A stretch of 64,000 nucleotides of DNA from Candidatus Zixiibacteriota bacterium (lineage in GTDB: Bacteria; Zixibacteria; MSB-5A5; GN15; FEB-12): contig JAGNLV010000001.1 in the NCBI GenBank assembly GCA_017999435.1, positions 1,210,746-1,274,745 of the forward strand. The letters are read 5' to 3'. Below the pieces are notes generated by a model, which saw only the letters and a list, made by a program, of their open reading frames with translations, made no database searches and was not told the DNA's origin. Position 1 is the stretch's first letter. Each line of letters begins with the position of its first letter. The position numbers were made by a program, and so were the translations under genes. This document shows, one piece after another, positions 4,083 through 61,131 of the stretch.

Positions 4083-6644
4083 GTGTCCGAAGCAAGTGGG
4101 ACCCCCGAAGCACCTGAATGCTTACGTAGCACGTACGACGCGATGAAGAGGCTCCTCGAAGAGAGATTTTTCCCCTACGTGGTCAAACCGGGGCGGTACG
4201 CCGGCGGGGAACCCGGCTCGCTTGTCAAGGCGCACGAGGGCCGCCTGCGGTACCTGCTCGCGTTTCCCGACAAATACGAAATCGGGCACTCCTACCTCGG
4301 GCTTCAGACGCTCTACCACGTGGTCAACCAGGACGACCGGTTTGTGGGGGAGCGCGTCTTCGCCCCCGACCGCGACGCCGAGGAGATCATGCGGAAGCAT
4401 GGAATTCCGCTGTTTTCGCTTGAGTCGCGCACGCCGGCGGCCGCTTTCGACGCCATCGGCTTCACCCTCAGCTACGAGCTGGTCTACACGACCGTCCTGC
4501 AGATGATCGATCTGGCCGGCCTGCCGCTGCGGGCGGCCGAACGCACCGACGAGCAGCCGCTGATTCTGGCGGGCGGTCCGGCCGCCTACAACCCGGAACC
4601 GATGGCCCCGTTTGTCGATCTGTTTTTCATCGGCGACGGCGAGGAGGGTCTCCCCCAGATGCTGGCGATTCTCCACCAGATGCGCGGGGCTACCCGGGCG
4701 GAGAAGCTGGCTCGGCTCGTGAGAGAGGTGGAGTCGGTGTACGTGCCGCGCTTTTATGATGACCGGCGCCGACCCCTCGTCGACTTCGCGCCCGCGGAGA
4801 TCGCCGCACGCGTCGTCCCTGCTCTCAAACCCTCGTACTATCCCCCGCAGCCAGTGGTCCCGCTGATCGAGACGGTGCACCAGCACCTGAGCGTGGAGAT
4901 CATGCGCGGCTGTCCGCGCGGCTGCCGGTTCTGCGAAGCAGGGACGATCTACAAGCCGGTGCGGCTGCGCCCCCCGCACGAGATCCTCGCGCAGGTGGAG
5001 ACGCAGGAGCGCCACGTCGGCGCCGATTCCGTTTCTCTCCTCTCGCTGTCGACCTCCGATTATCCCGACATCGACGACCTGGCGCGGAAGGTCGCCCGCC
5101 TGCTCGAGCCGATGCGGGCCGCGGTGAGCGTCCCCTCGCTCCGTCCCGGCAGCATCACGCCGGAGTTGCTCGACACGCTCAAGCTCGTGCGCAAGGCGGG
5201 GCTGACGATCGCCCCCGAGGCCGGCACCGAGCGCCTGCGCGCGTTCATTCGCAAGGATATCCCGGACGCCGCCGTCTACGACAGCGCCGAGATCGCATTC
5301 AGCAAAGGCGTGACGACGCTCAAGCTGTATTTCATGATCGGCCTGCCGACCGAGACGGAGGAGGATCTGCTGGCTATCGCCCGCATGATCGAGCGGGTGT
5401 TCGACCTCAGCCGCAACTACCCGGGCAAGCGCACGGTCAACGTGACCCTCTCGCCCTTCGTCGCCGAACCGCACACGGCCTTCCAGTGGGACGCTACAGC
5501 GACCCCGGCCGAGATCGACGAGAAATTGAAATTCATCAAGCGCCACGTCCGCAGCCGCCACGTCAATTTCAAGCACGGTTCGGCCGAGGAAGCCGTGCTC
5601 AAGGCGCTGCTCTCCCGGGGCGGGCGCGAGATGGCCGACGTCATCGAGGCCGTCTACCGGGCGGGCGGGCGGTTCGACGGCTGGGCGGAGGATTTCAATC
5701 CGCAGCGCTGGTTCGACCTCTGCCGCAGCCGGGGCATCGAGATCGAGGAACGCCTCCGCTCCGTCCCCTTCTCCGCCGACCTCCCCTGGTCGCACATCCG
5801 CAAGGGGCCGTCGCTCGCCCACCTTCAGGAGGAACGGCACCGCACCTCGACGCAGTTGCGGGAGTACGTCCCCAGATTCCGCGGCGAGACCGCCGCGCCG
5901 CTGCCGGAACCGGAGCTCCAATTCGGGCGGGGGAAGAAGAAAGTGGCGACGCGCGCGACCGCGGCCCCCACCCGCAACCGCCTCCGCATCCGGTGGGGAA
6001 AGACGGAGCGCCTGCGCTTCATGTCGCACCTGGACAACCTCCGCCTCATCGAGCGGACCATCCGCCGCAGCCGCATCCCGATCGCCTACAGCCAGGGATT
6101 CCACCCGACAATGAAGCTGTCGTTCGGCCCGCCGCTCCCGCTCGGGTTCACCTCGGAGGCGGAGTATTTCGACCTCACCCTCGAGACCAATTTCATGCCC
6201 TACCTGCTCGACAAGGTGCGGGCGGCGATGGTGGAGGGGATGGCGATGTACGAGGCGGGCGTGGTGCTCGGCAAGGCGCCCTCGCTGTCGTCCCAGCTCA
6301 ACCGCGTGGAGTACACGCTGGTGCTGGACGACGACGCCGACCTCGCGGCCGTCCGGCCGCGGGCCGAGGAGCTGCTGGGCAAAGCCCGCGTGGAGATAGA
6401 ACGCACCGGCAAGAATGGGCCGACGGCGGTCGACATCCGGCCGGCCGTGTACGCGATCACGGTCGCCGACCGCACGGTCGAGATGGTGCTCGGCGTGGGC
6501 GAGGGCGGATATGTCCGCCCCGACGAAGTGCTGGGAGAGCTCTTCACGGCGGAGCGGGCGAAAGCGCTCGCGCACCGCCTCCACCGGCGGGCCGCGTACC
6601 GGATCGATGAGGCCGGGCAGCGGATCGACCCCATGCAGTTGTAG
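4083..6644 (+). CDS. Radical SAM protein with B12-binding-like N-terminus fused to a DUF2344 domain
   Basis: 853 residues. The N-terminal third resembles the B12-binding domain of TIGR03960-type radical SAM proteins (KPGRYAGGE, then FPDKYEIGHSYLGLQTLY). The radical SAM core carries CPRGCRFCEAG near residue 278, the C-x3-C-x2-C motif that binds the 4Fe-4S cluster. From about residue 640 a DUF2344 (TIGR03936) domain begins with RIRWGKTERLRFMSHLDNL and SQGFHPTMKLSF. Many bacteria encode these two parts as one protein, often near ribosome or RNA-modification genes; the substrate is not settled. It lies 6 bases before rsmB, so the two are co-transcribed. The start is GTG 4083 or ATG 4143; neither has a strong Shine-Dalgarno. 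Confidence 0.88.
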   Translation: MSEASGTPEAPECLRSTYDAMKRLLEERFFPYVVKPGRYAGGEPGSLVKAHEGRLRYLLAFPDKYEIGHSYLGLQTLYHVVNQDDRFVGERVFAPDRDAEEIMRKHGIPLFSLESRTPAAAFDAIGFTLSYELVYTTVLQMIDLAGLPLRAAERTDEQPLILAGGPAAYNPEPMAPFVDLFFIGDGEEGLPQMLAILHQMRGATRAEKLARLVREVESVYVPRFYDDRRRPLVDFAPAEIAARVVPALKPSYYPPQPVVPLIETVHQHLSVEIMRGCPRGCRFCEAGTIYKPVRLRPPHEILAQVETQERHVGADSVSLLSLSTSDYPDIDDLARKVARLLEPMRAAVSVPSLRPGSITPELLDTLKLVRKAGLTIAPEAGTERLRAFIRKDIPDAAVYDSAEIAFSKGVTTLKLYFMIGLPTETEEDLLAIARMIERVFDLSRNYPGKRTVNVTLSPFVAEPHTAFQWDATATPAEIDEKLKFIKRHVRSRHVNFKHGSAEEAVLKALLSRGGREMADVIEAVYRAGGRFDGWAEDFNPQRWFDLCRSRGIEIEERLRSVPFSADLPWSHIRKGPSLAHLQEERHRTSTQLREYVPRFRGETAAPLPEPELQFGRGKKKVATRATAAPTRNRLRIRWGKTERLRFMSHLDNLRLIERTIRRSRIPIAYSQGFHPTMKLSFGPPLPLGFTSEAEYFDLTLETNFMPYLLDKVRAAMVEGMAMYEAGVVLGKAPSLSSQLNRVEYTLVLDDDADLAAVRPRAEELLGKARVEIERTGKNGPTAVDIRPAVYAITVADRTVEMVLGVGEGGYVRPDEVLGELFTAERAKALAHRLHRRAAYRIDEAGQRIDPMQL

Positions 6645-34385: not shown

Positions 34386-35810
34386 TCAGCCCACCCGTTT
34401 GCGCAGGCGGGCCGGCTGGATCTTCAACTCTTCACGATACTTGGTCACCGTACGCCGGGCAAGCTTTATCCCCTCGGTGTTCAGAATGCGGTAGATTTCC
34501 TGGTCCGACAGGGGCTTGTCGGGCGGCTCGGCGGCGATGATCTCCTCGATCCGCTGCTTGACCGAGCGTTTCGACATCTCATCGCCGTTCTCGCGCTGGA
34601 TGCCCGAGTTGAAGAAGTATTTGATCTCGTACACGCCGAGGGGCGTCTGCACGTACTTGCCGTTGGATACCCGGCTGATGGTGGCGACATTCATGCTCAC
34701 CATCTGGGCGACGTCTTCCATGATGAGGGGCCGGAGGAAAGCCTGGCCGCGCTCGAAAAACTCCCGCTGGCGCTCCACGATCGCCTCCATCACCCGGATC
34801 ATGGTGGACCGCCGCTGGTTGATCGCATTGAGCAGCCAGCGCGCCTGCTCGAGTTTCTGCTTGATGTACTCGCGTGTTTCCGGGGAGGCGCCCCGCCCCC
34901 GCCGCATGAGGCTCTTGTAGCCGGAGTTGATCTGCAGCCGGGGGATGTGGCTGTCGTTGTGGTAGACCACGAACTCGTCGCCGATCCGCTCGACAATGAG
35001 GTCCGGCACCACCGGCATGGCCGCCGGATCGAACCGTCCCTGGGCCGGTTTCGGCGAGAGCGACCGGATCGTCTCCATGGCCGCCTGCGCCCGCTCCACC
35101 GGCACGTTCATCATCTTGGCCACCTGGAGGATCGACTTCCGGTCCAGCTCATTGATGTGCTCGTCGACAATCCGCCACGCGAGCGTCCCCTCCAGCGCCT
35201 TCTCCCGAAGCTGGATGAGCAGGCACTCCCGAAGATCCCGGGCGGCCACCCCGGTCGGGTCAAAGCGCTGGATCATCTCCAGCACCGCCTGGATCTTCTG
35301 CGCCTCCGTCTTCAGCTCTTTGGCCATCTCCGGGACGCTGATGCTCAGGTAACCGTCGGGCGCGACGTTCCCGATAATGTACTCCCCGATCAACTGCTCT
35401 TCCTCGGAGAGTTTCAGGAGCATGAGCTGTTCGTTGAGGTGGTCGTAGAGGTTGGCCGAAGCCGCGGCCGTTCCCTCGAAGCGGTCCTCATCCGACTCCC
35501 GGGTTTCCCGGACCTTGTACCCCTCCTCGTCGTCAAAGAGGTACTGGTCCCAGTCCACTTCGGCCTTCTCCTCGGCGCGCTCCGGCTCGGCGACGTCGAA
35601 CTCGGCTTCCTGTTCGACCTCGACGTCCTGTTCGGCCTCGAGCTCCTCGACCTCCTCAAGCATCGGGTTGATCGCCAGTTCCTGGCGGATCTTCTGCTCG
35701 AGTTTGAGCGCCGGCATCTGCAGCATTTTCAGCGACTGGATCAGCTGCGGCGCCATCACCAGCGACTGCCTGAGCGTCTGCCTCTGGGACAATCCGACAT
35801 TGAGCTTCAT
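34386..35810 (-). CDS. rpoN: RNA polymerase sigma-54 factor
   Basis: 474 residues from the ATG at 35810. Region I is Gln/Leu-rich (MKLNVGLSQRQTLRQSLVM), followed by a strongly acidic region II (about 45-115), the core-binding region, the helix-turn-helix near 375-395 (MEDVAQMVSMNVATISRVSNGKY) split here, and the RpoN box ARRTVTKYRE near 458. Sigma-54 reads GG-N10-GC promoters and needs an AAA+ activator; a matching NtrC-type regulator and a target promoter are at 54-55.7 kb. A TTG start 24 bases earlier is less likely. It is flanked by lptB upstream and hpf downstream. Confidence 0.95.
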   Translation of the reverse strand: MKLNVGLSQRQTLRQSLVMAPQLIQSLKMLQMPALKLEQKIRQELAINPMLEEVEELEAEQDVEVEQEAEFDVAEPERAEEKAEVDWDQYLFDDEEGYKVRETRESDEDRFEGTAAASANLYDHLNEQLMLLKLSEEEQLIGEYIIGNVAPDGYLSISVPEMAKELKTEAQKIQAVLEMIQRFDPTGVAARDLRECLLIQLREKALEGTLAWRIVDEHINELDRKSILQVAKMMNVPVERAQAAMETIRSLSPKPAQGRFDPAAMPVVPDLIVERIGDEFVVYHNDSHIPRLQINSGYKSLMRRGRGASPETREYIKQKLEQARWLLNAINQRRSTMIRVMEAIVERQREFFERGQAFLRPLIMEDVAQMVSMNVATISRVSNGKYVQTPLGVYEIKYFFNSGIQRENGDEMSKRSVKQRIEEIIAAEPPDKPLSDQEIYRILNTEGIKLARRTVTKYREELKIQPARLRKRVG

Positions 35811-35968
35811 TGCCAGTAACCCGTTATCATGCAAACCATCCGACGGTGCGGTCTGTGCCTCTCTGCTAGGTGTATCGGAATCGATCGGGCGGGTGTTTAC
35901 GACCGGGCGGCCGTTCGTTCATTTATTAGACAGACGGTCGGTTGGCGGTCCGACCCGGCAGGATGCTC

Positions 35969-51505: not shown

Positions 51506-53161
51506 TCACATTTTGAGCTCCACCACCCTCAGCTCTTTGTCGGTCGCCAGCGCGATGTGCGTCAGCGACTCCGAGGCCGCAAACAGCCCCGACTTCTCTG
51601 CCTCAATGCTCCACTTGAGCGTCCCGGAGTTCGGGTCAATCGCCTGAATCCCCGCCTTCTTGGTGGGCATCACGAGCGTCGAGGCCGTGTAGAAAGCGTC
51701 CCCCACCCCTTCGTCGGACAGCTTCACCTTGTATCGCCACGCCTCCTTCTTGCCGTCGGGCGTGAAGCACCTGAGGCCGTCGTTGCCAAGCAGGGTCGGC
51801 GCCGGGACGTCGGCCAGGACGACGGCATCGCCGAGTTTGCACTCGCACAGGATCTTGCCGGTCGCGGGGTCGAGCCGCCACAGCCGCTCCTTGTCGATCA
51901 CCTGGATGCAGCCGCCCGGACCGAGGTCGCAGCTCTGGAACTCCTTCCCCTTCTCGAACTGCCAGCGGAGCGATCCATCGGCGAGCGACAGGCAGCAGAG
52001 ACGGTAGTTCTCGGTGTACCCGTCCTTGCTCAGGTCGTACTTGCCCGGAAACACGCAGAGCGGAGTCGACTCGTCGAGCAAAAGCGAGAAGATGGTGTAG
52101 TCGCCGATGTCTTTCTGGCTCTTGAGCGTCTCCGCGCCCGTGGCCGGATCGAGCACCCGCAGCTTGCCGCCGGAATTCACGACGATTTTCCCCTCGAGAA
52201 CCAGGAAGGGATCGGGCGATGGCCAGGCGCTCTTCACTTTGTCCTTGCTCCGCCACAACTCCGACCCGTCGGCCGGGTTCAGCGCCACCAGACGGTCCTC
52301 CTTGATCACGAGGATGCGGTCCTCGGCGAAGACCGGCGCGCCGTTGAAGTCCTCCTTGATCTTCCACCGCTCCTGCCCGGTGGCCAAGTCGAGGCTGGCG
52401 ACGTGTTTGGCCTGGACGATGACGTTCCCCTCCGCCATGGTCAATTCGCCCGCGCTTCCGTCCGCCGCGATGACATAGAGCTGGGTGGGCTCCCGCACTT
52501 CGTAGGTGATCTTGGTGGCCGACCAGAAATCGGTCTTCTTCTTTTTGTGCATCTTCCCCGGCTCGAAGGGATACTGCCAGGCGATCTCGCCCGACTGCCG
52601 GTTCACGGCGAAGAGAATCGGGTCATCGAGGTGTTCGCCGCCGGTGCCGGCGCGCTGGGCCGCGCGCTCGGCGTTCTCGGGCGAGGTGGGCAATCCGATG
52701 CGGAAGCCGGACTTGGTTTTCGACCCCAGCACGAGCAGGCGTTCGGTCCCCATCTCGACGCGGTGGACAAACCCGATATCGTCGTAGGGGATCGACCAGA
52801 GAACCCGTCCATCGCGCAGGTCGAGCGCCGAGAAGGGTCCGTGGCCGAGATACATCACACCTGCCGCGGGATTCACCCACAGCGCCCCTTCGAACCGCAG
52901 GCGGTTGCCGACAGGCACCTCCGTGTACCACAGCTCGGCCATATCGGTCACGCGAAAGGCCTGCATCTTCGCGGTCTTGTTGACGAATCCGCCGTAGTCG
53001 ACGGCGATGAGGATACTGTCGCCAATCCACAGCAGGCCGTCCACTTTGTTGCGCATCTCCGCCGTCCGGCCGGCGGGTTCCTGGGCGGCGGCGCCGGCGC
53101 ACACCAGAAGGAGCGCCAGACTCAGCGCCGTCACCGCGGTTCGATATCTTCTCGTGTTCAT
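51506..53161 (-). CDS. Exported PQQ-type beta-propeller protein
   Basis: 551 residues from the ATG at 53161, behind GAGGAG. The signal peptide (TAVTALSLALLLVCAGAAAQ) is followed by repeated outer strands of a WD/PQQ-type propeller: LDLRDGRVLWSIPYDD, VNRQSGEIAWQYPFE, LDLATGQERWKIKED, LNPADGSELWRSKDK, LDPATGKILCEC and DPNSGTLKWSIEAE. No quinone-binding or dehydrogenase active site is seen, so it is likely a structural or binding propeller. It is 88 bases downstream of the barrel gene on the same strand and probably shares its sigma-54 promoter. Confidence 0.82.
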   Translation of the reverse strand: MNTRRYRTAVTALSLALLLVCAGAAAQEPAGRTAEMRNKVDGLLWIGDSILIAVDYGGFVNKTAKMQAFRVTDMAELWYTEVPVGNRLRFEGALWVNPAAGVMYLGHGPFSALDLRDGRVLWSIPYDDIGFVHRVEMGTERLLVLGSKTKSGFRIGLPTSPENAERAAQRAGTGGEHLDDPILFAVNRQSGEIAWQYPFEPGKMHKKKKTDFWSATKITYEVREPTQLYVIAADGSAGELTMAEGNVIVQAKHVASLDLATGQERWKIKEDFNGAPVFAEDRILVIKEDRLVALNPADGSELWRSKDKVKSAWPSPDPFLVLEGKIVVNSGGKLRVLDPATGAETLKSQKDIGDYTIFSLLLDESTPLCVFPGKYDLSKDGYTENYRLCCLSLADGSLRWQFEKGKEFQSCDLGPGGCIQVIDKERLWRLDPATGKILCECKLGDAVVLADVPAPTLLGNDGLRCFTPDGKKEAWRYKVKLSDEGVGDAFYTASTLVMPTKKAGIQAIDPNSGTLKWSIEAEKSGLFAASESLTHIALATDKELRVVELKM

Positions 53162-53249: not shown

Positions 53250-53918
53250 TCAGAAATGGAAACCAATGCCGCCGCCCATTGAGAATCCCGAGTCGAGCAC
53301 CGTGATCTTCTTGTCGTAGCCGAGATTCGCCGCCTCGACCTCTTTCGACGGCCGGATGCGGTACGCCCCCAGCACCTCGAGCGTCACCACGCTCGACAGA
53401 CGGACCTCCAGACCCGGCTCCAGCAGGACTTCCAACCCGCTTTCCGATATTTTTCCGATATGAAAGTCCACGCCCAGCATGTTGTCCGGGTCGACATTCA
53501 TTTTGGCGATGTCTTTGGAGATGCTGACCCGGCCGACTCCCGCCGTCCCCTTCAACCCCAGCCAGCTGTTGAGCGTGCACCGGCCCTCGAGAATCCCCAG
53601 CACTTCGGTCCCGGTGCCTCCCGACGCGCCTTCGTATCCCCCGTCCCCTTCGGCGAAAAACCCGCCCCGGATGCCGATCGCGAAAGTCGGCGAAATGGCT
53701 TTCGCGAGCGAGCCGGTCAGATTGACGCCCACGGCGGCGGAGACCTCGGCCGCCTCGGCGGGCGTCTCGGCCGGCGTCAACTGGTCGAGGTTGGTGAGTT
53801 TCTCGCTCCCCGACATCGAGAAACACATATGCCAGTTGCGATCCTGCACCGTGCGGGCAGCCGCGGTCGACGCGATGAGCGCCGCAGCCGCCAGAGCGAT
53901 AACCAACGTCTTCTTCAT
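53250..53918 (-). CDS. Outer-membrane beta-barrel-like protein
   Basis: 222 residues with a clear signal peptide (MKKTLVIALAAAALIAST). The mature protein alternates polar and hydrophobic residues in beta fashion (GIRGGFFAEGDGGYEG, LSSVVTLEVLGAYRIRP) and ends in Phe (GGGIGFHF), the usual mark of an outer-membrane barrel. It is probably the first gene of an operon with the propeller protein. Its 105-base leader carries a near-consensus sigma-54 promoter, and two identical-format palindromes lie further upstream, next to the gene for the NtrC-type regulator, so it is the best candidate target of that regulator. Confidence 0.82.
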   Translation of the reverse strand: MKKTLVIALAAAALIASTAAARTVQDRNWHMCFSMSGSEKLTNLDQLTPAETPAEAAEVSAAVGVNLTGSLAKAISPTFAIGIRGGFFAEGDGGYEGASGGTGTEVLGILEGRCTLNSWLGLKGTAGVGRVSISKDIAKMNVDPDNMLGVDFHIGKISESGLEVLLEPGLEVRLSSVVTLEVLGAYRIRPSKEVEAANLGYDKKITVLDSGFSMGGGIGFHF

Positions 53919-54034
53919 GGGACACCTCCAGACGATTCCTTTGTGTTATGCGATCAGTTTTTGAGTCTCGGAGTTTGGGTTTCGCATCGTTGCCGTCTCT
54001 TTAGTGGATTCGCTCATCTTTGTTCGAGCCTTCA

Positions 54035-54050
54035 TGCAATCTCCGTGCCG
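54035..54050 (-). promoter_or_regulatory. Sigma-54 promoter of the barrel/propeller operon
   Basis: On the minus strand CGGCAC-GGAGA-TTGCA matches the sigma-54 consensus TGGCAC-N5-TTGC with one mismatch at the first base; GG and GC are ten bases apart. Transcription would start near 54024, about 105 bases before the barrel gene. Confidence 0.75.
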
Positions 54051-54124
54051 GAGCTGCGGCGGTTCCGTATTTCGCCCCGCGGCAACGGTTTGCCTCGGAT
54101 ACAGGCAGCCGCGGCCGGCCTGCT

Positions 54125-54173
54125 GTCGCACGCGTGCGACGGCGGGCGCCGGCGGGTGTCGCAGATCTGCGAC
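54125..54173. promoter_or_regulatory. Twin palindromic enhancer sites (putative UAS)
   Basis: Two perfect 16-bp palindromes of form GTCGCA-N4-TGCGAC, at 54125-54140 and 54158-54173, both preceded by T. Their centres are 33 bases apart and stand about 110 and 142 bases upstream of the predicted sigma-54 start, the usual place for NtrC-type activators. Confidence 0.75.
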
Positions 54174-54274
54174 GCCGGGCCGCGCGGTCGCGCCGGTTGC
54201 GGGAACTCGGTATATAATGAGAAAGGCGGCAGCCGATCGGCCGCCGCCGGAGCGCCCCGCCGTGGGGCGGTCAC

Positions 54275-55681
54275 CTAGACATTGAGCTGGCGGGCATACT
54301 GGCCGAGATCGAATTCGGCGATCAGCCGGTACAGGTGCGAGCGGTCGATCCCGAGCGTTTCCGCGGCCCGGGTGACATTCCCGCCGGCCGCCACCAGCGC
54401 CCGCACCACGCACTGACGCCGGAAACTGCTCTCCATGTCGCGCAGGGTCATGAGCGGCGCGCCTCCCCCGCCGGCTTCTTCGGCGAGCACCCGCTGGACA
54501 TCGGCCGGCTCCACGACCTCCTTGTTGGCCGCGCGGCACAGAATCGCGATTACGGCGTTGCGCAGTTCGCGGACGTTGCCCGGCCACTCCCGGCCCAGGA
54601 ACAGGTCGTGGCAGTCCGGGTGGAACGATACGTCGCGCCCGTACAGCCGCGTCGACTGCTGGGCTGCGAAGTGGTTCACCAGCAGAGGGATATCCTCGCG
54701 CCGCTCCCGCAGCGGCGGAATGGCGATGGTCGCCACTTTCAGCCGGTAGTAGAGATCAGCCCGAAACTTCCCCTGCTCCACCAGGCCGGCCAGATTCTGG
54801 TTGGTGGCCGCGATCACCCGGACATCGGCCGACTGACGGTCGTCGGTTCCGAGTTTCATGTAGTCGCCGGTCTCCAGAAAGCGGAGGAAGAGCGGCTGCA
54901 TGGCGGGTGGGAGGTCGCTGATGTCGTCGAGAAACAGGGTCGAGCGATCGGCCGCCTGGACGAACCCGCCGCGGTCGCGGCTGGAACCGGTGAAGGCTTC
55001 GGGCGTGTGGCCGTAGAGCACATCCTGCCCGAGGTCCCGGCTCAGTTCCCCTCCGCCGACCGTCACCATCGGCTCGCTGCGCCGCGGGCTCTGGAGGTGG
55101 AGCTGGCGCGCCACCAATTCCTTGCCGCACCCGGTTTCCCCTTCGATCAGCACCGTGACGTCGCGCGGGCCGAACTGCGCGATCGCCTCGCGCACCTCCT
55201 GGATCCCCCGGCTGAGGCCGACAATCTCGCAGTTTTTGCTGCGCTCGTCGATGGCCTGCTGGACCGCCCGTTTGAGCCGGCCGGCCTCCACCGCGTTGCG
55301 AACCACGAGGAGGGTTTTCTCCCGGTCGGTCATTTTCTCCAGGTAATCGTACGCCCCGAGGCGCGTGGCCTGCTTGGCCGTCTCGAGCGTCGCGTGCCCG
55401 GTGATGATGATGACCGGCAGGTGGGGATCGATTTTGCGGATCCGTCCGAGAATGTCGATACCCGTCTGATCGCTGAATTGCCACTCCAGGTCGAGGGTGA
55501 CCAGGTCGAACCGCCGTCGCCGGACTGTCGCGATCGCCTCCTCCGGGTCGGTCGCCATCGCCACACGGTAGCCGCGGTTTTTGAGCATCTGGCCGAATGC
55601 GCTCCGGAACGCCGATTCGTCGTCGGCCACCAGCACATCGGCCGTTACGGCCCCGGCTGCTCCATTGAGCGGCTCGCCCAT
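54275..55681 (-). CDS. NtrC-family sigma-54-dependent response regulator
   Basis: 468 residues from the ATG at 55681 (AAGGTGAG upstream); a GTG overlapping the kinase stop is also possible. Domains: receiver (about 15-130; VLVADDE, phospho-Asp in VTLDLEW, ITGHA, LEKM), AAA+ core (about 150-385; Walker A EGETGCGKE, Walker B TLFLDDI, FRADLYYRL, WPGNVREL) and Fis-type helix-turn-helix at the end (LGIDRSHLYRLI). The sigma-54-contact loop reads EAFTGS in place of GAFTGA; the FTG core is intact. It is downstream of the histidine kinase in one operon, and twin palindromes plus a sigma-54 promoter follow its gene. Confidence 0.92.
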   Translation of the reverse strand: MGEPLNGAAGAVTADVLVADDESAFRSAFGQMLKNRGYRVAMATDPEEAIATVRRRRFDLVTLDLEWQFSDQTGIDILGRIRKIDPHLPVIIITGHATLETAKQATRLGAYDYLEKMTDREKTLLVVRNAVEAGRLKRAVQQAIDERSKNCEIVGLSRGIQEVREAIAQFGPRDVTVLIEGETGCGKELVARQLHLQSPRRSEPMVTVGGGELSRDLGQDVLYGHTPEAFTGSSRDRGGFVQAADRSTLFLDDISDLPPAMQPLFLRFLETGDYMKLGTDDRQSADVRVIAATNQNLAGLVEQGKFRADLYYRLKVATIAIPPLRERREDIPLLVNHFAAQQSTRLYGRDVSFHPDCHDLFLGREWPGNVRELRNAVIAILCRAANKEVVEPADVQRVLAEEAGGGGAPLMTLRDMESSFRRQCVVRALVAAGGNVTRAAETLGIDRSHLYRLIAEFDLGQYARQLNV

Positions 55682-55689
55682 GTCGGGTC

Positions 55690-58287
55690 TCACCTTCTTT
55701 TGAGCGGCAGACGGACCGTAAGTCGCGTCCCGCGGTGGAGTTCGCTTTCGGCGGCGATCGTCCCGCCGTGGTTTTCCACAATATCTTTCACCAGCGTCAG
55801 TCCGATGCCGGTGCCGCCGGGCGATTTGCTGAACCCCGGCTCGAAAATCCGCGGCAGATCATCCGCTGCTATTCCAGCACCCGTGTCGGCCACCGACACC
55901 TCGACGACGCCATCCTCCAGACTGCTCTGCAAACCGGTTGCCGGCCGCGTCGTGATCGTGATCATCCCCTCCCCGCGGACGGCCATGATCGCATTGGACA
56001 AAAGGTTATCGATTACCTCGCGAACCTGGTCGGTGTCCGCCTCGAGCGGCGGAAGCCCCTCGTGTAGCATTAATGAGACGCCCACTGTGTCCGGAAGGCC
56101 GCCCGCGCGAGCGCTCGCCACCGTGCGGACCAGGTCGTTCAGATCGCACTCGGTCAGGGTCGGCTTGCTGTTGCGCAGAAACTTCAGAATCCGGGTCGCC
56201 GCTTCCCCGCCATCGAGAATTTCCTTGTCCGCGGTTTCCCACTGGCGGCGGAATTCCGGATCGGCCTGCAGCCGCCGGGCGATTTGCGGGTCCTCGACCA
56301 GATTGCCCAGCACAATCCGGGCGGTCCCCATGTGGTGTTTGAGCCGGTGCACCCACCGCTGCGCAGCATCCCCCAGCACCAGCCGCCAGTTCCACATCGG
56401 CCGGTCCGCCAGATCTTCCACCACGACGATTTTCCCGCTGTACTCATTGTGCCGGCCGACGTGCGGGTAGACGGTCACCTCGAGCTGGCGGGTGTCGGCG
56501 CCGCGGGTCTGTTCGATGCGGCGCTGGTGCACCTGCATGGGGTCACTCAGCGAGTCGGCGAGCACCGCCCTCAGTTCACCCTGCGCACCCAGCCGGGTTT
56601 GCAGGAAGTGCGGTCGCCGCCCGCTCAATTCCCCGACCAGTTCCCGGCTCAGCGGATCGCGGTTCATGAAGACGATCCGCCCCTTGGCGTCCAGCAACAG
56701 CACGAGGGCCTTGATGTGGTCAAGCGTCGGCAGCCCCATCGCCGCCCGACGCCAGTTGAGAGCGGATGTCGCGGCCTTCAGGACCACCGCCAGCAGGAAC
56801 ATGGCGAGGACAATTTCCAGGTGTGTGCGGTATTTGGCGCTCAAGCGGACTATCATCGACTGACGTTGAAACTCCACCAACTCGAAATCCGAGGGCCCCC
56901 GCGACAGTAGCAAACGACTGCTTTCGTCGACCCGGCCCGATGAAAGCGTGCCTCCCTGCGATGTCAGCGCGAGCGGCTCCAGATTCCGATCGAGAATCGC
57001 GATCTTATCCTTCGGGGTACCTGCGGCCAGCAGCAACGGTTCTCCCGGCAACAACCCGCCAAGAGACATGAAGGCCAGGGCCGGTCCGCGCACGCACCGG
57101 TGCAACTCCAGTCGGCGGTTCAGCAGTACTGTCACTCTGCCGTTGTCGGCCTGGTAGGAAACGGCGATCGGGGCCTCCTCCCAGCCGGTCGGCAGAACAT
57201 TCGGATTCTGGCGAGGGAGCGGCAAGTCTCCCAGCGCAAAGCCGGCCACCACGGCGCCGGTCGCGGGATCGAGCGCTCGCAGGATGGTATCGGTCTGCAC
57301 GCTGTCAAAGGCCGGTTCGCAGAAAGCAACCGCCTCTTGAGATCCGTCGCCGTTGACATCGAGGGGGATCACGACCGAGTAGAAGCCGCTTCCCCCGATC
57401 ACGCGCCGCCACCTCTCGCGGCCCCTGGCATCGAAAGCCAGCGCGTAGGCGTGGTGGCTGTCCATCCCGCGGCACTCATACCTGTTGGCGGTCGCATTGG
57501 TGGACACAACGAAGAGTGTCTCCCCCGCCGCCGTCGGATAAGCCGCCCGGTATCGCCCGGCCACCATGTCGGCCAGCGGCAGAAACCACAATTCCTTTCC
57601 GGCCGCAAAATCCCACGCTACGATACCGCGCGCGATCGCCGAGTCCGGTTTCGCGCTTCGGGTAAACAGCAGCTCGCGAACACCGTCTCCATTGAGATCT
57701 GTCGCCAGGAGCGGCTCGACGATGATGTCATGCCAGAACTCGCCGGGAGGAAAACCTCTCGCCACGGCGGCGGTGATGATCGCTGAGGTATCGTTCGCCA
57801 GCACGCCGTCGTCCAATCGAAAACCGACAATCTCCAGAAACAGGGTGTCGCCGCGGTGCTTGGCGAGCACGATTTCGCTGGAGGAATCTCCCCAGATGTC
57901 AAACACAACGTTCCGCCAGAACCGGCACGAGAGCAGCGGACCGTTGTACTGAACCAGCTTGCCCTCCGCTCCCGAGTGCGGCATCACTGAGATCGTGCTC
58001 AAGAACCGGGAAGAGTCCACCACCTCCCACCAGACCCGGCCGACCTCCGCGCTCCCGTCGCCGTCGACATCAACCAGGAAAACCTCTCCGCTGGTGAGCG
58101 AGGGGTTGTTCTGAGACTCGATTGGCTCCAGCCGGTACGGCAGCACCCGCGGGTCATCCGGAATGGCAAGCTTCCGGCAAACCGCTTCCTTCCCCTTGTC
58201 CTCCGCCGCAAGCGCCGACGGCGCCATGGCGGTGGTCACGAGCGCACACAGGACTAACCCGAGGCGATAGCGATGGGAAATCGACAT
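55690..58287 (-). CDS. Histidine kinase with predicted periplasmic FG-GAP-type propeller sensor
   Basis: 865 residues. After a signal-anchor (LGLVLCALVTTAMAPSALA) comes a large periplasmic part (about 30-485) with three FG-GAP/VCBS-like Ca-binding loops: LVDVDGDGSAE, ATDLNGDGVRE and PLDVNGDGSQE. A transmembrane helix (EIVLAMFLLAVVLKAA) leads to a PAS-like domain and a kinase core with H box VHRLKHHMG (His647 is the likely phospho-acceptor, with unusual His-His where NP is common), N box IDNLLSNA, DTGAGI and GTGIGLTL. The next gene is its response regulator. A TCGACA-17-TATATT promoter lies upstream. Confidence 0.9.
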   Translation of the reverse strand: MSISHRYRLGLVLCALVTTAMAPSALAAEDKGKEAVCRKLAIPDDPRVLPYRLEPIESQNNPSLTSGEVFLVDVDGDGSAEVGRVWWEVVDSSRFLSTISVMPHSGAEGKLVQYNGPLLSCRFWRNVVFDIWGDSSSEIVLAKHRGDTLFLEIVGFRLDDGVLANDTSAIITAAVARGFPPGEFWHDIIVEPLLATDLNGDGVRELLFTRSAKPDSAIARGIVAWDFAAGKELWFLPLADMVAGRYRAAYPTAAGETLFVVSTNATANRYECRGMDSHHAYALAFDARGRERWRRVIGGSGFYSVVIPLDVNGDGSQEAVAFCEPAFDSVQTDTILRALDPATGAVVAGFALGDLPLPRQNPNVLPTGWEEAPIAVSYQADNGRVTVLLNRRLELHRCVRGPALAFMSLGGLLPGEPLLLAAGTPKDKIAILDRNLEPLALTSQGGTLSSGRVDESSRLLLSRGPSDFELVEFQRQSMIVRLSAKYRTHLEIVLAMFLLAVVLKAATSALNWRRAAMGLPTLDHIKALVLLLDAKGRIVFMNRDPLSRELVGELSGRRPHFLQTRLGAQGELRAVLADSLSDPMQVHQRRIEQTRGADTRQLEVTVYPHVGRHNEYSGKIVVVEDLADRPMWNWRLVLGDAAQRWVHRLKHHMGTARIVLGNLVEDPQIARRLQADPEFRRQWETADKEILDGGEAATRILKFLRNSKPTLTECDLNDLVRTVASARAGGLPDTVGVSLMLHEGLPPLEADTDQVREVIDNLLSNAIMAVRGEGMITITTRPATGLQSSLEDGVVEVSVADTGAGIAADDLPRIFEPGFSKSPGGTGIGLTLVKDIVENHGGTIAAESELHRGTRLTVRLPLKRR

Positions 58288-58530: not shown

Positions 58531-61131
58531 ATGCACTTAGCCTTTCGTTCCGCCGGCGCCGCCGTGCTCTCCGCGCTGTTGGTCGTTTTGGTGGCCGCCT
58601 CGGCCGCCGCCCAGCGGGAGCCTGCCGACAAGGATGATTTCGCGGACTTGGCAGCCGCCGCGCCCGGCCCCAAGCCCAGCATCGCCGCCCACAACGTCGG
58701 CCAACTCACCGTGGGCGTCACCAATTTCGGCATGATCGGCATCGGGCGGGGCAAGAACCAGCGCATCGACTGTTTCACCGGACGGCCAGTCCCGAAGGGG
58801 GAGTACCCCAAGGGCTCGCGCTCGGTGTACCTCTATGAGGGAGGGCTCTGGGTGGGCGGCGTGGTGGGCGGCGACAGCCTGGTCTCCACCGGTGCCGAGT
58901 TCAACAACTACAATTTCGAGTTCTGGCCCACTCAGCCCATCACCACCTACTCCAACGTCGACCCTGATGATCCCAACTCCGCCCTGGCCAAATCCGAGCA
59001 GGACTACTACGCGACCTATGTCGATACCATGCCGGTGAGTTCGTACGATCCGATCGCCAACCGCGGGCACAAGCCGCTCGGGCTTCGGGTCGAACAGGCC
59101 TCCTACGCCTGGTCCTACCCGCACACCGACGATTTCATCATCATCACCTGGCAGATCAAGAACATTTCGCGGAAGGCCATTTCAGACGTGTGGGTGGGCA
59201 TCTACTGGGATGCCGATGTGCACCTGCAGGGGATCGGCGACATGCTCAACCGCCCCGACTACGGGAAGCCGCTCACGGACGGGCGCGACGACCTCGCGGG
59301 GTTCATGTACACCGTGCCGTCGGCCGATGAGACCTGCCCCGGCTCCGATACCATCGGCCTCGCCTGGACCGCCGACAACGAAGGCGACTACTCCAGCACG
59401 ACCGGGCTGTTCGCGGTTCCCAACGTGGGGGCCATCCGCTTTCTCGGCCCCGAGCTGACCGATCGCCGCTACCGTGTGAACTACAACTGGTGGGTCTACA
59501 ACTACAGTTCCGGCTACGACTACGGTCCGCAGAAGCGGGACCGCTACCGCGACCTCGGCAACGGACCGGGGACCCCGTACGGCGACGTCAACCGCTACTT
59601 CATGATGAGCAATGGCGAGCGGGATTTCGACATGGTCTACACGTACGGCATCGGCCAGAACGACCCGGTGTGGGTTCCCCCGAGCCGCTACACGTCCTGG
59701 GCGATGTCCCGGGGCGGCGACGTGCAGCAGGTGCTCTCGGTCGGCCCGCGCTACCTCGCCCCCGGCTCCGAAATCACGGTCGCCATGGCCTTCGTCTGCG
59801 GCTCCGGCCTGCACTACAACCCGGTCAACTTCCGCCGCAAGATGCTCCAGGCGTTCGAGCCGGACGAGTACTACGCCGGGCTTGACTTCTCCAATCTCCT
59901 GGCCAATGCCCAGACCGCCGGCCGCGTCTATGACATCCCCGGTTTCGACAGCAACGGCGACGGTTACCTGGGGAAGATGCGCGAGTGCGTGGTCGATTCG
60001 GCGTTTGTCGACGGCCGCTGGGTGGCCACGGCGCTCGACACGAGCTGGTACGAAGGGGACGGGATCCCCGACTTGAAAGCGGCCGGCCCGCCCCCCGCCC
60101 CCGAATTCTCGCTCCACCCCATCCGCAACGGCGTGAAAGTTCTCTTCTACGGACTCCAGTCAGAGACCACCCGGGACATCTTCTCCAACCAATTCGACTT
60201 CGAGGGCTACCGCGTCTACCTCGCCCGCGACAATCGGGAGAGCAGCTTCTCGCTCGTCGGCCAGTACGACCGCGAGGATTACGACAAGTGGGTGCTCGTG
60301 CAGAAACCCGGGCGCGACGCGCAGTACTACCGCCAGGGGGATCCGTTCACCCGCGGATTTCTCCGCTGCGCCTACGGCCAGGGGCCCAACCCGTGCGCCG
60401 ATTCCGCTTTTGACCCCCTCCTCTACACCATCTCCCGCCCGTACGTGCACCCGCTCTATCCCGACTCGGTGTTCTACTTCACGGCTCACGACTACAACCA
60501 GTATGCCTTCGGGGCCGGGACCTCGATCCGCAAGGTCTATCCGGCGCAGGAGCCGCCCGTGTCGCTGCAGGCGCCGGCGCCCGAGGACACGACCGAGGAA
60601 GGTCTGTTCAAGTACTATCTGTACGAGATGGATATCCCCGACCTGCTCCCGAGCGTGCAGTACTACGTGGTGGTGACCGCATTCGACTTCGGGTCGCCCG
60701 AGACCGGCCTGGCCCCGCAGGAGTCCGCGCGCACGGTCTACGCGAAGCCGGCTTATCCCAACAACGCCTGGGACGAGAAGCCCGACTCGCTGACCAACGT
60801 GTACGTCTACCCCAACCCGTACCGGCACGACGCCTACTATCGCGTCTCCGGTTTCGAGGGACGGGGCGAGGAGGACCGCTCGCGTGATCGTGTTCGCAAG
60901 ATTACGTTTGCCAATCTGCCTCACCAGTGCACGATCCGCATTTTCACGCTCGACGGCGACCTGGTGAAAGAACTCAACCACGACATTCCGTCCAGCGATC
61001 CGAACTCCTCCTACCACGAGTGGGACATGGTGAGCCGGAACTTCCAGATGATCGTCTCCGGGTTGTACTACTGGGTGGTGGAGACGCCGGACGGGCGGCA
61101 TCAGGTGGGCAAGCTCGTGATTCTGCTGTGA
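58531..61131 (+). CDS. Large secreted protein with a YPNP-type C-terminal sorting domain
   Basis: 866 residues with a signal peptide (AAVLSALLVVLVAASAAAQ). The N-terminal and middle regions carry no enzyme motif I recognise and are Tyr- and Asp-rich with beta-type spacing (FIIITWQIKNISRK; FDFEGYRVYLARD). The C-terminal 110 residues begin VYVYPNPYRHDAYY, continue CTIRIFTLDGDLVKEL and end GLYYWVVETPDGR and GKLVILL. That is the pattern of T9SS type A or FlgD-like C-terminal domains, which guide export or surface attachment in FCB bacteria. It lies divergent from the kinase and may be controlled by the same circuit through the sigma-54-like site at 58444. Confidence 0.82.
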   Translation: MHLAFRSAGAAVLSALLVVLVAASAAAQREPADKDDFADLAAAAPGPKPSIAAHNVGQLTVGVTNFGMIGIGRGKNQRIDCFTGRPVPKGEYPKGSRSVYLYEGGLWVGGVVGGDSLVSTGAEFNNYNFEFWPTQPITTYSNVDPDDPNSALAKSEQDYYATYVDTMPVSSYDPIANRGHKPLGLRVEQASYAWSYPHTDDFIIITWQIKNISRKAISDVWVGIYWDADVHLQGIGDMLNRPDYGKPLTDGRDDLAGFMYTVPSADETCPGSDTIGLAWTADNEGDYSSTTGLFAVPNVGAIRFLGPELTDRRYRVNYNWWVYNYSSGYDYGPQKRDRYRDLGNGPGTPYGDVNRYFMMSNGERDFDMVYTYGIGQNDPVWVPPSRYTSWAMSRGGDVQQVLSVGPRYLAPGSEITVAMAFVCGSGLHYNPVNFRRKMLQAFEPDEYYAGLDFSNLLANAQTAGRVYDIPGFDSNGDGYLGKMRECVVDSAFVDGRWVATALDTSWYEGDGIPDLKAAGPPPAPEFSLHPIRNGVKVLFYGLQSETTRDIFSNQFDFEGYRVYLARDNRESSFSLVGQYDREDYDKWVLVQKPGRDAQYYRQGDPFTRGFLRCAYGQGPNPCADSAFDPLLYTISRPYVHPLYPDSVFYFTAHDYNQYAFGAGTSIRKVYPAQEPPVSLQAPAPEDTTEEGLFKYYLYEMDIPDLLPSVQYYVVVTAFDFGSPETGLAPQESARTVYAKPAYPNNAWDEKPDSLTNVYVYPNPYRHDAYYRVSGFEGRGEEDRSRDRVRKITFANLPHQCTIRIFTLDGDLVKELNHDIPSSDPNSSYHEWDMVSRNFQMIVSGLYYWVVETPDGRHQVGKLVILL

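Follow-up and report, generated by a model that had tools for sequence, protein, structure and literature searches.

A predicted NtrC-type two-component, sigma-54-dependent enhancer circuit with envelope outputs in a Candidatus Zixiibacteriota genome

NtrB-NtrC with its glnA promoter and ZraSR, which controls the envelope gene ZraP, are among the described systems closest to the locus considered here, in which a sensor histidine kinase gene, an NtrC-type response regulator gene and two output genes lie together in a 64,000-nucleotide stretch (called the window) of a Candidatus Zixiibacteriota bacterium (contig JAGNLV010000001.1, positions 1,210,746 to 1,274,745). According to a reporter paper (PMC5696343), the Escherichia coli glnA enhancer spans -100 to -151, and a review (PMC7408454) describes dependence on the helical face for an NtrC promoter with two sites (by its reference, nifLA). 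For LuxO-like proteins, two sites are placed ~100 bp upstream of the sigma-54 site (PMC11407668). In Desulfovibrio vulgaris, the regulator genes DVU0653 and DVU0679 are directly followed by their own sigma-54 target, which is a non-coding RNA (PMC4641369).

With high probability, as judged from protein domains and conserved DNA sites, the locus encodes a self-contained NtrC-type two-component sigma-54 circuit. It resembles NtrB-NtrC/glnA in combining a kinase and a receiver-AAA+-Fis regulator with a sigma-54 promoter and a pair of sites separated by three helical turns, but differs in that the kinase is membrane-bound and carries a large predicted exported propeller, the outputs are envelope proteins and the operator is TGTCGCA-N4-TGCGACA-like. 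It shares with ZraSR a membrane kinase (with a core matching ZraS) and a sigma-54 regulator controlling an adjacent envelope gene, whereas its sensor is a predicted propeller, its outputs are a barrel and a propeller and its regulator scores below the ZraR cut-off. The arrangement of DVU0653 and DVU0679 is likewise found, and their RNA target can be compared with modules lacking an open reading frame (ORF) in the related genomes G025 and G095; however, the sites and the phylum are different and the window module drives protein genes. The eight-bladed PQQ-type propeller fold of BamB appears twice, in the kinase sensor (from a structure model) and in the second output protein (from its sequence); unlike BamB, the sensor is fused to a kinase, and the output protein falls below the BamB cut-off.

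In the window, the 356-bp gap between the regulator gene and the barrel gene contains both palindromes and the -24/-12 element (Table 1). The palindromes are spaced by 33 bp, start to start, the element stands 75 bp below the nearer one, and no other GG-N10-GC element on the two strands of the window scores 11/12 or more. The ORFs of the kinase and the regulator overlap by 4 bp. Most of this had been proposed in an initial annotation made from the sequence: the kinase and NtrC-type regulator gene pair is borne out by ORFs and Pfam domains, the two perfect 16-bp palindromes are exact, and the near-consensus promoter 75 bp further on scores 12/12, with the transcription start predicted identically. 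The distances likewise fit an enhancer and promoter pair, the sites spanning about -100 to -150, close to the glnA range cited above (PMC5696343). The genome search that had been suggested for the palindrome pattern finds it exactly at two places in the 3.5-Mb genome, both at this locus. A gene for sigma-54, rpoN, does lie in the window, a call made only from its RpoN-box motif. A 23-codon ORF (MSESTKETATMRNPNSETQKLIA, 54017-53946) opens the predicted transcript 7 nt past the predicted start and may be a leader peptide or due to chance.

The reading is carried mainly by conservation. Of 132 genomes of the phylum, counting the window's own, 8 have an orthologous regulator at E<=1e-95, a threshold set after orthologs had appeared at <=1e-119 and the next match at 3e-93. 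The kinase sensor is found at E<=1e-40 in seven of these eight genomes; the exception is G095, whose contig breaks off where the regulator gene begins. Behind the regulator gene of all eight loci stand two TGTYGY-N6-RCRACA sites, 32-34 bp apart start to start, with a GG-N10-GC element 91-115 bp past the start of the nearer site. A module was called from at least 10/12 scored site positions and at least 10/12 promoter positions. Three more were found: one in G062 upstream of the kinase gene, facing a divergent gene for a 163-aa membrane protein, a second one in tandem in G095 and an unlinked one in G045 (contig C86), which scores 12/12, 12/12 and 12/12. Across the resulting 11 modules, the site-to-promoter distances fall on one helical face (R 0.82 at 10.5 bp), with a simulated p of 0.0005 for 11 modules and of 0.004 for one per genome, modules within one genome not being independent.

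Searching by the barrel or propeller protein alone, blind to the regulator, recovers the sites and the promoter in G095 and, in G112, one good site, one half site and a 12/12 promoter. The G112 locus, reached via its propeller gene only (69% identity over 146 aligned residues), has an 11/12 site, preceded at 33 bp by a 9/12 one, and is excluded from the module count; its genome is without a regulator at E<=1e-95. In dinucleotide shuffles (7 regions, 2000 each), the module never arises and the site pair arises in 3 of 14000, and among 26 loci of other NtrC-type regulators in related genomes none has the module and one has a bare pair. The proposal of a two-component, sigma-54 enhancer circuit is thus supported by domains, conservation in 8/8 loci, glnA-like geometry, the presence of rpoN and the regulator-blind search.

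Table 1. Features of the locus and ORF-less stretches of relatives, with positions in the window unless a contig or locus label is given
Feature	Position	Strand	Basis
Sensor histidine kinase, 865 aa	58287-55690	minus	ORF list, Pfam, alignment, structure model
NtrC-type response regulator, 472 aa	55693-54275	minus	ORF list, Pfam, alignment
Distal predicted enhancer site, perfect 16-bp palindrome GTCGCAGATCTGCGAC, centre -141.5	54158-54173	none	exact match
Proximal predicted enhancer site, perfect 16-bp palindrome GTCGCACGCGTGCGAC, centre -108.5	54125-54140	none	exact match
Sigma-54 -24/-12 element CGGCACGGAGATTGCA, 12/12 of the consensus used	54050-54035	minus	element scoring
Predicted transcription start, 12 nt after the -12 C	54024	minus	inferred
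First output gene, 222-aa predicted outer-membrane beta-barrel	53918-53250	minus	ORF list, weak structure model
Second output gene, exported PQQ/BamB-like beta-propeller, 551 aa from ATG at 53161 (start approximate)	53161-51506	minus	Pfam
rpoN (sigma-54)	34386-35834	minus	RpoN-box motif only
ORF-less stretch with CGAAAAAGGGGG, L229	G045:C86:11324-11535	minus	
ORF-less stretch with CGAAAAAGGGGG, L216	~1617-1735	minus	

The regulator matches the Pfam families Response_reg, Sigma54_activat and HTH_8 (a Fis-type helix-turn-helix), all above cut-off, and its residues D24, D68, T98 and K120 together with the GExGxGK motif are invariant in the eight aligned sequences. It scores below the cut-offs of the equivalog models of ntrC (329.4 bits, cut-off 558.6), NtrX (337.4 bits, cut-off 600) and ZraR (291.2 bits, cut-off 760), and by these scores it is not NtrC, NtrX or ZraR proper. 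By all sequence tests made, save the non-canonical contact loop discussed below, the circuit belongs to the NtrC-type two-component class. The kinase and regulator trees are mostly unresolved, so no conclusion on inheritance is drawn from them.

Several observations weigh against a working sigma-54 circuit or against the strength of the evidence for it. The contact loop of the regulator, to which the initial annotation had not drawn attention, reads EAFTGS where the canonical sequence is GAFTGA, its Walker B motif has Asp-Asp where six others aligned have Asp-Glu, and the protein sits on a long branch of the tree. In G130, the loop is GALTGA, of a kind listed as inactive in PMC3162934, and the sites and promoter are kept there. 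The scoring of sites and promoters was settled once the first four loci had already been inspected visually, and a fairer test comes from the remaining four regulator loci together with the unlinked module. No clear second target is apparent in the window's own genome, where pairs at spacing 33 with at most two mismatches number 8 versus 10 in the reversed control (at spacing 32 there is one two-mismatch place, at spacing 34 none). Lastly, a same-arm 6-N4-6 pair within 100 bp arises in 2 of 60 shuffled windows.

The loop, the Walker B residues and the long branch would suit a regulator that has lost sigma-54 activation and instead acts at the palindromes by repression or as a sigma-70 activator, like TyrR, DhaR and HupR, which are listed as relatives that lost sigma-54 (PMC3162934). 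This is quite unlikely, since decay of the palindromes and of the -24/-12 element would then be expected, and the former are perfect and the latter scores 12/12. Moreover, PMC4641369 includes a Desulfovibrio regulator that has both a GAYTGS loop and a target, and the EAFTGS regulator is expected to be functional because the Figure 3 legend of PMC3162934 classes Glu at loop position 1 as 'putative' functional and notes Ser at position 6 in PrpR. The long branch, the altered loop and the Asp-Asp Walker B beside two perfect palindromes may also point to a recent functional shift of the regulator. As 26 NtrC-type matches were scored in the window genome, one could further imagine that the palindromes serve another DNA-binding protein and that a different activator drives the nearby promoter; it is very improbable, given that the sites stand behind this regulator's gene in 8/8 loci and that the module occurs in 0/26 loci of other regulators. 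Chance palindromes next to a chance GG-N10-GC match are scarcely conceivable in view of the sequence, spacing and helical phase conserved in 11 modules, even though the window is 65% GC and contains five perfect 16-mer palindromes where shuffles average 2.4. Taken alone, the window palindromes are suggestive only, given this count and the one above for same-arm pairs in shuffled windows; the circuit is considered secure because all eight orthologous loci carry the same module.

In the two-component sigma-54 circuit favoured here, an envelope-located signal would cause the kinase to phosphorylate the regulator, whose dimers would bind both palindromes together and assemble an AAA+ ring. The regulator would then loop ~100 bp of DNA, hydrolyse ATP and open the sigma-54 polymerase waiting at the -24/-12 element, and transcription from the predicted start would yield the outer-membrane barrel and the exported BamB-like propeller. 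The site pair appears to mark one target in the window genome and two in some relatives, possible small RNAs included. A wider regulon in the window's own genome was considered and rejected, palindrome copies with at most one mismatch being fewer than in the reversed control (10 versus 21 per strand). Autoregulation was likewise set aside: in 7/7 loci no site pair with a promoter reads into the kinase gene, and the G062 pair upstream of the kinase serves the divergent gene.

The kinase is organised as a signal/anchor region, a propeller-like sensor, a membrane helix, a PAS-like domain, DHp and HATPase; Pfam gives HATPase_c plus weak FG-GAP and PAS matches, and H647 (in DHp), N761, N765, D801, G827 and G829 are invariant in 7/7 sequences. 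In a structure model built from seven sequences, with a mean predicted local distance difference test (pLDDT) score of 67, an all-beta domain (residues 38-474) precedes the membrane helix, the PAS-like domain and the kinase core. For the beta domain, the alignment with BamB (7nri) reaches Z 22.9 over 322 residues with a root-mean-square deviation of 3.5, and other propellers score nearly as high (WDR41 and IFT-A at Z 21.9-22.2), so that for the predicted BamB-type eight-bladed propeller only the fold is supported. The best structural match of the kinase core is ZraS (9jfj, Z 23.7). With a sensor predicted to be a periplasmic propeller, the system would sense something at the cell surface.

A second, larger kinase family (L159-L175), mostly of 750-800 aa, has a weakly similar sensor and often lies beside an NtrC-type regulator. 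As a further instance of the circuit it was rejected, since the site pair occurs in 0/9 regions examined (17 were taken, and the nine with a regulator in the expected place were examined). A strong -24/-12 element is found within 500 bp behind the regulator in two of the nine (G096 and G131), and a general dyad-pair scan gave no pair in eight regions, the ninth (G057) being spoiled by a run of N. A tblastn search of 79 loci from other organisms, chosen by regulator, turned up no relative of the sensor. A literature search returned no paper on this system; its results were mostly unrelated, so this is weak evidence of absence.

Outputs were read from each of the 11 promoters, with signal peptides and membrane segments judged by eye. 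Exported or membrane proteins lie behind eight promoters: a barrel and a propeller in G000, a polyketide-cyclase-like exported protein followed by a propeller in G059, a barrel followed by a propeller in G090, a barrel behind one module of G095, a secreted protein behind one module of G045, a 1265-aa exported protein in G130 and, behind the two modules of G062, a DUF2569/zinc-ribbon protein and, divergently, the 163-aa membrane protein. The earlier description of the products as envelope proteins is therefore supported at the window and in most relatives. The 222-aa protein of the window is without a Pfam family; its model has a signal peptide, eight strands and a C-terminal Phe, OmpA tops the list of matches (E 5e-6) and the mean pLDDT is only 59.8, weakly suggesting an outer-membrane beta-barrel with an OmpA-like fold. 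Its family occurs in 2/132 genomes, both times behind the circuit, the G095 relative being 40% identical; the G000 and G090 barrels cannot be aligned. The 551-aa protein matches Pfam PQQ_2 above cut-off and scores 47.8 bits against the BamB model TIGR03300, whose cut-off is 285.2; its family occurs in 4/132 genomes, three times directly behind the circuit and once downstream of the G112 promoter.

The remaining three promoters face no ORF (in G025, in G045 on contig C86 and at the first module of G095), a feature of the relatives that the initial annotation had not noted. The G045 and G095 stretches share CGAAAAAGGGGG, then a terminator-like hairpin, which seven T follow in G045. The pattern TTGC-N20-50-CGAAAAAGGGGG occurs at four places in the 132 genomes, namely these two stretches and two inside ORFs. 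Both stretches are candidate sigma-54-dependent small RNAs, a lead only, as the shared word was spotted afterwards. Folding of the G095 stretch is no better than that of shuffles (z 0.47), and a search of six loci of relatives against Rfam gave no match that reached the gathering score. Between the promoter behind the G025 regulator and a convergent gene lies an ORF-less stretch of ~200 nt (L042:7382-7585), which folds into two strong hairpins, the last one followed by TTTTCTT; in a comparison with 200 shuffles, its terminator half folded better than 199 of them (z -2.97). The G112 leader (L217, near 497) contains CGAAAAGGGGGG.

Some neighbouring or similar features were recorded as well. Divergent from the kinase, an 866-aa exported protein without a Pfam family is encoded at 58531-61131, and a 916-aa ORF downstream of the G025 locus (L042:12453-15203) resembles it by eye. 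A scan of all loci collected by then (3.6 Mb counting both strands, overlapping loci included) returned the eight modules known at that point plus two more, in L080 (from a Myxococcales record) and in L200. The former has, near an NtrC-type regulator (minus strand, ~5193-5310), a TGTTGG-N6-CCAACA pair spaced by 34 bp and, 68 bp further on, a -24/-12-like element, and may be a similar circuit of other specificity. Pairs of TTGCA-N4-TGCAA palindromes 33 bp apart occur in L205 (G023:C300:8500-8548) and in L230 (G090:C12:19201-19249), where they precede a 171-aa exported barrel-like ORF; they are possibly operators of a different sigma-54 regulator.

Compared with the described systems, what is new would lie in the propeller sensor, in the outputs being envelope proteins and in the possible small RNAs. 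Sigma-E, Cpx and Rcs are envelope responses, and a sigma-54 analogue of them can be imagined, in which the propeller-sensor kinase watches outer-membrane protein assembly or the state of the envelope and answers, via sigma-54, with a new barrel plus a BamB-like propeller in the periplasm, joined in relatives by CGAAAAAGGGGG small RNAs; this idea is given only a small chance. The locus is a case in which sensor, regulator, operator pair, promoter and output can be read from the DNA of an uncultured phylum and checked by conservation; for regulators of a class abundant in that phylum, it yields a binding motif and a regulon open to testing. That its glnA-like geometry, with helical phasing, persists in highly diverged genomes demonstrates the enhancer rule cleanly by comparison. 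If it is true that the propeller kinase reads envelope assembly, the circuit would open up outer-membrane stress sensing in these bacteria.

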